This document shows, one piece after another, positions 13,952 through 41,181 of a DNA stretch of 43,219 nucleotides. Both the position numbers and the translations under genes were made by a program. Location of the stretch: assembly GCA_023251835.1 (NCBI GenBank), contig JAHEXZ010000001.1, positions 1 through 43,219 of the forward strand. The letters are read 5' to 3'. The notes below the pieces were generated by a model. It was not told the DNA's origin and made no database searches. It saw nothing but the letters and a program-made list of their open reading frames with translations. The first letter of the stretch is position 1, and every line of letters begins with the position of its first letter. The DNA comes from Bacteroidota bacterium (lineage in GTDB: Bacteria > Bacteroidota > Bacteroidia > 2-12-FULL-35-15).

Positions 13952-14068
13952 TTATAATCCGATGTGGCCCACCCATAACGTGGCAGATAAATACAAAAAA
14001 AATACTGAAAAATTTACAAATGAATTAATCCAATTTACTGCAAAACGCGGTATGGCTGTGCTTTGCCA

Positions 14069-14169
14069 GACACAATCCCCATAACCTCATATCCCCCTTC
14101 GCACGAGCGGTTACGTGCAACATCGGTTTCATTGTTCGCCCTGCGGGCGCAACGAAACCTTAGCTGTTA
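14069..14169 (-). repeat. 101 bp direct repeat, copy A; attC-like foldable site
   Basis: It is about 96% identical to copy B (14959-15060) and in the same orientation. Read on the minus strand, it begins with the stop codon of the lipoprotein gene (TAACAGCTAAGG). It then folds into an imperfect hairpin (14125-14141 against 14145-14159, loop TGC) and a small hairpin (GCACG 14101-14105 with CGTGC 14114-14118), and ends near GGTTATGGGG. Its TAAC...GTTA ends are partly complementary. The position directly after a stop codon and the foldability resemble integron attC sites, but I do not find a clean RYYYAAC/GTTRRRY core pair. Confidence 0.8.
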
Positions 14170-14817
14170 CAGGGCGTTTTTCTTCTGTCGTATAAAAGTC
14201 TCACTGTCACTAAATCCGTCAGCCTTTATAAATTTTTTGAACTGCTTTTTTGTCGTTGTGAATTTGTATGGCGGAACAGTGTCTTGTGCTGTTTCAGTTA
14301 TTTCCTTTAGGTTGTCAAGGTCAAGTTTTGTCGAGATACTGCCAATTACAAGTTGTCCTTTTGATAATTGAATTTTCCTTACTTCCCAACTTTCTTTGTC
14401 GTAACGAGTGTTTAAAAAATAATAGCCTTTGAATTTTCGCACAACATTGTCGTAGTTCATTTGAAATAAGGTATCGATGTAATGAATGTGAGTTACCAAA
14501 CTGTCACCATAACGCTTTATTAAAGTCCGCTCATTTGTTTTTAAGTCAATAACTGTGTCACCCACAAGTCTTGAGTTGCTGTCAAGTTGATTTGAATGAA
14601 CCTTGTAGTCATAGTCGTAAATTCTTTTAATTAATTTATCGCTGATTGAAAGCGTTGAATTGTCTGACAAGCTTATATATTGCCCTTGCAAACGATTTGG
14701 AAATTTAGATAAGTTGTCTGTGTCAGTTGGTTGTGGTTCGTTAAAAGTCACGGGGGGGTCACAAGCAAACAAACTTGTCAAAATGATAAATGTCGATATT
14801 ATTTTTAGTCGTTTCAT
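14167..14817 (-). CDS. Hypothetical lipoprotein carried between two direct repeats
   Basis: The protein has 216 residues with a lipoprotein signal sequence (lipobox LFAC, Cys19). The mature part is polar and mixed alpha/beta, with no recognised motif (GQYISLSDNSTLSI, KGYYFLNTRYDKESWEV and a Lys-rich C-terminus). It is probably attached to a cell-envelope membrane. I do not recognise the family. The stop codon overlaps the end of repeat A. About 140 bp upstream of the start lies a candidate promoter and then a terminator facing the same way, before repeat B. The unit [promoter-gene-repeat] is thus self-contained, as in gene cassettes. Both neighbours beyond the repeats are unrelated. Confidence 0.8.
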   Translation of the reverse strand: MKRLKIISTFIILTSLFACDPPVTFNEPQPTDTDNLSKFPNRLQGQYISLSDNSTLSISDKLIKRIYDYDYKVHSNQLDSNSRLVGDTVIDLKTNERTLIKRYGDSLVTHIHYIDTLFQMNYDNVVRKFKGYYFLNTRYDKESWEVRKIQLSKGQLVIGSISTKLDLDNLKEITETAQDTVPPYKFTTTKKQFKKFIKADGFSDSETFIRQKKNAL

Positions 14818-14905
14818 TGTCGGTTGTGTCGTATTTTAAAATGCCCTATAATGTTATGACAGCTAAGAGAAGTGCCCCCTTAACCCACCAAGTTCTTTTA
14901 TTCTG

Positions 14906-14913
14906 CTAATGTA
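14906..14913 (-). promoter_or_regulatory. Candidate -7 element of the cassette gene
   Basis: On the minus strand TACATTAG differs by one base from TAnnTTTG and lies about 90 nt upstream of the lipoprotein start. It is weak on its own; its position just after a terminator supports it. Confidence 0.25.
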
Positions 14914-14933
14914 CGAATTTGCACCGAATTTTT

Positions 14934-14963
14934 AAAAAAAAAGCGTCCTGAAAAACAAGACGC
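14934..14963 (-). terminator. Rho-independent terminator reading out of repeat B
   Basis: On the minus strand GCGTCTTG-TTTTT-CAGGACGC forms an 8 bp stem with one G-U pair, followed by nine T. It would stop transcription entering the cassette from repeat B, so the lipoprotein gene needs its own promoter. Confidence 0.75.
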
Positions 14964-15060
14964 AATCCCCATAACCTCATATCCCCCCTTCACACAAGCG
15001 GTTACGTGCAACATCGGTTTCATTGTTCGCCCTGCGGGCGCAACGAAACCTTAGCTGTTA
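14959..15060 (-). repeat. 102 bp direct repeat, copy B
   Basis: It differs from copy A by three transitions and one extra C. Two of the transitions sit in the left arm of the small hairpin (14992-14996 against 15005-15009). On the minus strand they turn C-G pairs into G-U pairs, so that strand still folds. It abuts the istB remnant directly. Confidence 0.8.
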
Positions 15061-15061
15061 T

Positions 15062-15373
15062 TATTATGATGTTCCCGGTGGAAAAGAAACAGGCTGTGGC
15101 TCTGTTAATCTTATCAACCATCTGCATCAGAACGCCTCACTGATTGTAACTATAAATAAAAGTCCGGATGAATGGGCGGCTATGCTTGATGATGAAGTAC
15201 TGGCAACTGCTATCCTGGACAGAATCCTTTACAATTGTGAAATCATCAAACTAACCGGAAAACTTTTTCGAATGGATAACAGAAAAACAATTTTCTCTAA
15301 AAATAGTTTAAACAAATCAGATATATTTGTGTTTTATAGATTTGTGATTAATATCTATTTTTTGTGTTTATGA
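15062..15373 (+). pseudogene. IS21-family istB 3' remnant (transposition helper ATPase)
   Basis: The reading frame, which has no start outside the repeat, matches the C-terminal third of IstB-like ATPases: NLINHLHQNASLIVTINKSP, DEWAAMLDDEVLATAILDRI, then LTGKLFRMDNRKTIF. The Walker A/B part and the istA transposase are absent. The similarity begins right at the end of repeat B, so whatever created the repeat junction also cut this insertion sequence. The frame stops just inside the next gene's start region. Confidence 0.75.
15322..15329 (+). promoter_or_regulatory. -7 promoter element TAnnTTTG
   Basis: TATATTTG is a perfect match to the Bacteroidota -7 consensus, 40 nt before the methyltransferase start. 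A second match, TAGATTTG, follows at 15337-15344. Either could drive the gene. Confidence 0.4.
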
Positions 15374-15897: not shown

Positions 15898-15915
15898 TTT
15901 ATAAAAAATAAGCAG

Positions 15916-15973
15916 TTTCTTAAAAAAACAGGGCTGACTCCATTTTTGGAGTCAGCCCTGTTTTTTTAAGAAA
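15916..15973. terminator. Bidirectional terminator, perfect 27 bp stem
   Basis: Arms 15916-15942 and 15947-15973 are perfectly complementary around a TTTT loop. They have a GC-rich core (CAGGGCTGACTCCA) flanked by A7 on one side and T7 on the other, so each strand ends in a T-run. It sits between two convergent genes. Confidence 0.95.
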
Positions 15974-15979
15974 TTACTA

Positions 15980-29691: not shown

Positions 29692-41181
<11,490 letters not shown>

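Follow-up and report, generated by a model that had tools for sequence, protein, structure and literature searches.

A lipoprotein gene cassette between IS91-type element ends and an integron-like cassette system in Bacteroidia

Introduction

Integrons with an IntI integrase, such as class 1 and Vibrio chromosomal integrons, carry a single integrase gene at the head of an array with a core site beside the gene. Their arrays consist of short open reading frames (ORFs) on one strand, with folded attC sites that have complementary R boxes and GTT cores, and their cassettes are common to distant genomes. In Bacteroidota, integrons are said to be rare, or almost absent. Here, we analyze a contig of a Bacteroidota bacterium (assembly GCA_023251835.1, contig JAHEXZ010000001.1, positions 1 to 43,219), in which a lone lipoprotein gene lies between two direct repeats. 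The whole stretch of 43,219 nucleotides is called the window. Very probably, the gene is a cassette of a Bacteroidota integron, and the repeats are the decayed ends of IS91-type elements that invaded its attC sites.

The cassette arrays that we found in Bacteroidota share the features listed above, including the one-strand array, the folded attC with a GTT core and a core site (attI); an IntI-family integrase with its specific insert of about 41 aa is the one that is missing. Their integrase lacks this insert and has an N-terminal extension, their R boxes pair over 9 nt, and in most loci of the genus the integrase gene points towards the array, not away from it. As the integrase scores below the IntI cut-off and lacks the insert, we do not class the system with IntI integrons but regard it as an integron variant. 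Software that looks for IntI would report the arrays as CALIN (clusters of attC sites lacking an integron integrase), from which they differ by having an integrase, other than IntI.

Elements of the IS91 family follow a flank rule of GAAC/CAAG and are known to mobilise neighbouring DNA. The elements in question resemble this family (NF033538, Y2_Tnp, Zn_Tnp_IS91) in their transposase and in having an end hairpin beyond the transposase gene (tnp) with a fixed tetranucleotide outside. Unlike it, they are flanked by GTTR, carry a tyrosine recombinase, and target attC. Insertion that is specific for attC and fixed in orientation is known for IS1111-attC. It is also described for the group II introns found with integrons, the group IIC-attC introns (PMC7923331). 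Our elements insert in the same manner but combine an HUH transposase with a tyrosine recombinase, and their end is itself attC-like. As far as the accessible text of PMC8138268 goes, the integrases described here resemble its "integron-like" subgroup of tyrosine recombinases in grouping with IntI apart from XerC/XerD, and that text describes no cassette array for members without the insert. Our literature search found no paper on such a cassette system, which is not proof of novelty.

The lipoprotein gene as a cassette

The locus contains the following features (window coordinates; L numbers denote other loci).

13964–14067, minus strand: remnant of an IS91 transposase 3′ end with downstream DNA, deletion-joined to repeat copy 1; 98% identical over 104 bp to tnp-remnant DNA on another contig of the same genome (L099)
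14068–14169, minus strand: repeat copy 1, tnp-side end of an IS91-type int-tnp element (int, its recombinase gene), with a hairpin at 14115–14165; 85–89% identical to ends beside IS91 transposase genes in L085 and L088
14166–14852, minus strand: putative integron-type gene cassette, core R′ to core R″, delimited by core-to-core homology to a relative in L188
14166–14175, minus strand: cassette 3′ core R″, GCCCTGTAAC (GCCCTATAAC in the L188 relative), pairs with R′
14167–14817, minus strand: lipoprotein gene P0001, an ORF of 216 aa whose TAA stop overlaps the first bases of repeat copy 1
14843–14852, minus strand: cassette 5′ core R′, ATTATAGGGC (GTTATAGGGC in the L188 relative), complementary to its own R″
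14849–14923, minus strand: 3′ half of a native attC preceding the cassette, its 5′ half lost; 80% identical over 75 bp to a complete attC in L045
14934–15060, minus strand: repeat copy 2, a second tnp-side IS91-type end of 127 bp, with hairpins at 15006–15056 and 14934–14963 (terminator-like); 82–87% identical to the L085 and L088 ends
15023–15373, plus strand: C-terminal fragment of an IstB (IS21) gene abutting copy 2 (PF01695, profile positions 177–236 of 238)

The original prediction, made from the sequence alone, saw a lone lipoprotein gene between foldable direct repeats of 101–102 bp, one of which begins at its stop codon, and this description holds. The two copies on the minus strand (14069–14169 and 14959–15060) are 96% identical, and folding as DNA both are more stable there than their shuffles (z −2.4 and −2.3). 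The long hairpin claimed for each repeat is a real fold whose stem shows compensatory changes among relatives, but the stable part covers only the first ~50 nt. Similarly, the terminator proposed just inside the repeat is present as a terminator-like hairpin but belongs to the shared stretch of copy 2, which extends to 14934. The proposed unit of promoter, gene, and repeat of about 890 bp has to be redrawn: the cassette spans 14166–14852, the upstream repeat lies outside it, and its 5′ leader measures only ~35 nt, which is too short for a full promoter.

The cassette limits follow from the L188 relative, which belongs to a different family. Window positions 14165–14854 align with L188 positions 121–810 at 88.6% DNA identity (691 bp), and on either side the similarity breaks off at the attC cores (GTTATAGGGC...GCCCTATAAC). 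In L188, the gene sits between intact attC sites of ~120 nt, the downstream one measuring 117 nt. P0001 itself has no Pfam or NCBIfam match. Its relatives in other families show 91% and 82% identity, and none was found among the other genus members of the survey. With its complementary ends and exact core-to-core homology, the lipoprotein gene is, as far as sequence can tell, a mobile, integron-style gene cassette, as originally proposed, and we infer its recombination. Both of its attC sites are disrupted by element remnants. Downstream, the attC after R″ is replaced by an element end, and at the upstream half our full attC model reaches only 7.9 bits. The cassette is probably fixed or poorly mobile now.

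The repeats as ends of IS91-type elements

In four other loci (L085, L088, L042, and L049), the repeat lies immediately beyond an IS91-family transposase gene, or the remnant of one, on its 3′ side. The elements are complete in L085 and L049, where a tyrosine recombinase gene precedes tnp. The transposases score 433 and 437 bits against NF033538 (cut-off 125) and match PF04986 and PF14319. In other genomes, three pairs of near-identical element copies lose their similarity immediately past the hairpin, at GTTR (GTTA, GTTATT), which shows that the hairpin belongs to the element. Both the hairpin at the end beyond tnp and the fixed tetranucleotide outside it agree with membership in the IS91 family. 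Across twelve elements the hairpin sequence varies while its pairing is kept: 11 of the 14 stem pairs are changed on both sides, and the covariation score is 0.508 vs 0.134 after shuffling. The repeat also extends 50–75 bp past the hairpin into element DNA.

Since tnp-remnant DNA is joined to copy 1, and both copies are 82–89% identical to the L085 and L088 ends, the two repeats are element ends and not the attC of the cassette. By this comparison of sequences, each is what a deletion has left of an IS91-family element with a tyrosine recombinase, namely its tnp-side end.

The original prediction instead took the repeat for the cassette's own attC, in which case the IS91-type element would merely adjoin such sites. 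In its favour, most copies follow a gene stop in the same orientation, and the hairpin has R″- and R′-like ends besides its covariation. Nevertheless, we consider the assignment unlikely and rejected the 101-bp repeat as attC: at unrelated places, near-identical copies of the element include the hairpin right up to their outer edge, the repeat continues into element DNA, and in the closest relative of the cassette this position is taken by a different attC, complete and 117 nt long. One case speaks for a native attC and against our reading. In genome G008, a dapB-lepB cassette has the element hairpin as its sole attC without an adjoining element. Elsewhere, dapB and lepB are adjacent in nearly all relatives (58–276 nt apart); a base-level empty site is not proven because the species are too diverged. 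The element hairpin may therefore itself act as attC, so that element end and attC are not strictly separate categories. Another species, G030, seems to carry a different insertion after dapB (L134), with ends CGCTAAC...GCGGTTAGGC.

A repeat confined to this locus was named at the outset as a finding that would speak against a cassette. The same genome contains five copies, and further ones occur in 7 other species of the genus; a covariance model of the repeat matches 8/36 genus genomes. The repeat occurs also in Bacteroidota metagenome-assembled genomes (MAGs) of the genome collection, and its core has no exact match in viral contigs. The other such finding, a repeat flanking unrelated junctions without cassette order, is true of the repeat but not of the gene. 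The position after genes, together with the terminator-like hairpin inside the longer form, could also fit a regulatory or terminator repeat of the 3′ untranslated region, similar to repetitive extragenic palindromic (REP) sequences and unrelated to recombination. We give this explanation almost no credence, as it is contradicted by the fixed link to transposon ends, the GTTR junctions, the attC flanks, and the boundaries of the paired copies, and Rfam gave no match at the window unit.

Some copies adjoin other genes. In L041 (534–4431), one lies between a Bacteroidota site-specific integrase gene and genes for an ADP-ribosylglycohydrolase and TIR/SEFIR-like proteins, perhaps a defence cargo. 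Defence-like genes, named by eye (AlbA-type ATP-binding protein, HerA-like ATPase, AAA ATPase), adjoin repeat copies or lie in an array in L048 (10246–14139) and L045 (11418–12683).

Probable insertion site of the element

In 16/27 distinct loci, beyond the null, the int-side end of the element (GTTG[AC]AC..) adjoins the remaining part of an attC, with the core at 116–122 nt in most of these flanks. On the other side, the hairpin is bordered externally by the R″ box of a cassette, and the gene of this cassette is oriented towards the hairpin. In L105, L112, and L131, the partner R′ at the far end of that cassette matches in 12/13 bases. These junctions suggest that the IS91-type element enters attC right after R″ (TAAC|AGC) and in one orientation.

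attC sites and arrays across Bacteroidia

A covariance model was built from 13 native attC sites, and all of its 17 stem pairs covary. It matches 32/36 genomes of the genus and 262/395 genomes of the class Bacteroidia, in 141/196 genera; except for a few, these genomes are drafts or MAGs. The specificity of the model rests on E-values and on an independent test of end complementarity. Matches often form long arrays, all on one strand. In the end test, the first nine bases after an attC are compared with the nine bases with which the next R″ ends, taken as reverse complement. Complementarity in 9/9 positions was found for 72/91 array cassettes, compared with 2.3% in mismatched pairs, and a second cassette set gave 23/30. 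The ends differ from one cassette to the next. In array cassettes, the longest ORF lies on the attC strand rather than the opposite one at a ratio of 59:4. Rfam has no match at the attC sites of five loci. Weak, sub-threshold matches to the DUF805 and DUF805b RNA motifs occur in or near cassette arrays (L221 2862–2916, L188 1232–1264), a possible link between these motifs and cassette leaders.

The integrase and attI

A family of tyrosine recombinases of ~370 aa (some ~545 aa) is encoded 0.3–3.5 kb from attC in 12/18 genus loci; the remaining six are close to contig ends. Other families provide six long arrays, each with exactly one ~370-aa integrase gene, at the array head. Attachment sites and integrase also go together by genome: 73/76 integrase-bearing genomes have attC (odds ratio 27, p 4e-11, for 137 genomes in a partly reconstructed list). 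If the first cassette obeys the end rule, its 5′ core is expected beside the integrase gene. The exact 9-mer core predicted in this way was found in 13/16 loci, mostly within ~200 nt of the integrase gene and often after TATAANNAA. The genome of the window has such an integrase on another contig (G000:C144:700–1821), followed by an attI-like core, GGATATAAGCAA|GTTAGGCAA.

In these integrases, the spacing between ArgI and HxLRH is 91–94 aa vs 133 in IntI (also when aligned to 2a3v), so the ~41-aa IntI-specific insert is missing. Above the TIGR02249 cut-off, IntI occurs in none of the 36 genus genomes and in a single one of the 395 class genomes (G173). In the 12 kb examined around this true IntI (L163 3295–4542), no sequence is repeated, which makes it an In0-like case. 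In a tree, the array integrases group with IntI and with the recombinases of the IS91-type elements, apart from XerC/XerD (99/97; to be read with caution given the long Xer branches). From its position and sequence, the array-head recombinase of ~370 aa without the IntI insert is likely the integrase of the cassette system. The element's own int was considered for this role and rejected: it groups with the array integrases and IntI, but is absent from array heads. The distinct Bacteroidota cassette system that had been suggested initially is supported, in the form of arrays with an integrase unlike IntI. The N-terminal extension of the array integrases (residues 1–70 in L094 700–1821) is a separate beta-rich domain without a Pfam match, and is longer in the ~545-aa members.

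Could the element alone have moved the gene, by ordinary one-ended transposition of the IS91 type and without any integron-like system? A transposase of this family and its ends are present, and mobilisation of adjacent DNA is known for such elements. We regard this as highly improbable. The genes are located beyond the tnp-side end, outside the element, complementary cassette ends that are different per cassette contradict it, as do the attI positions, and the six long arrays with attC and one integrase show no IS91 involvement.

Besides the dapB-lepB cassette, several points weigh against the reading given here. The end match of the window cassette is imperfect (9.5/12, with controls reaching 10) and depends on the L188 relative. 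The sites behind the attC model were found partly via element flanks. Contig ends preclude the test of integrase-attC proximity in 6/18 genus loci. In 29/137 genomes there is attC but no detected array integrase. Finally, the closest solved structure to the integrase (structure model: predicted local distance difference test, pLDDT, 82.6; predicted template modelling score, pTM, 0.50) is the integron integrase 2a3v.

Proposed mechanism and significance

The scheme starts from what can be located on the DNA, namely the cassette limits, the element ends and their target, the arrays, and the integrase and attI positions; which enzyme recombines what, and which strand is used, we infer. A circular cassette would close its 5′ core (GTTATAGGGC-type) and its 3′ core (GCCCTATAAC-type) into one attC. 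Cleavage of the folded attC by the integrase would fall at G|TT, and the cassette would go into attI beside the integrase gene or into another attC. The second mobile family, the IS91-type elements with their own tyrosine recombinase, would insert after R″ as described above. Their transposase-side end is an attC-like hairpin, and a circular element may close in an attC-like manner with the junction CCGTGCAAC-hairpin-GTTGCAC. For the cassette in the window, invasion of both attC sites, followed by decay of the elements, would have left one element end per side as a direct repeat.

A wider proposal, on which our judgement is evenly balanced, is that a separate integron lineage without the IntI domain held to be essential is a main cassette-exchange system of Bacteroidia, with attC in two thirds of the sampled genomes. 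IS91-type elements with an integron-like recombinase and an attC-mimicking end would exploit it, and an invaded cassette would keep a working hybrid attC, of which the G008 dapB-lepB cassette may be an example. If the cassette system holds as described here, cassette exchange is common across the class and was missed because searches require IntI. It would also explain patchy accessory genes, including defence-like and lipoprotein genes, provide natural integrases for testing the need for the IntI insert in the recombination of folded attC, and add a transposon family that apparently uses attC as a regular target.

Other features of the window

Between two converging gene ends, an inverted repeat of 32 bp (15911–15978) is 94% complementary with a 4-nt loop and resembles a terminator. 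Further along, a giant ORF on the plus strand (29692–41181, 3829 aa) is built of tandem repeats based on 9 bp (GGTTCTACC-type, Gly-Ser/Ala-Thr) and would encode a collagen-like repeat protein.
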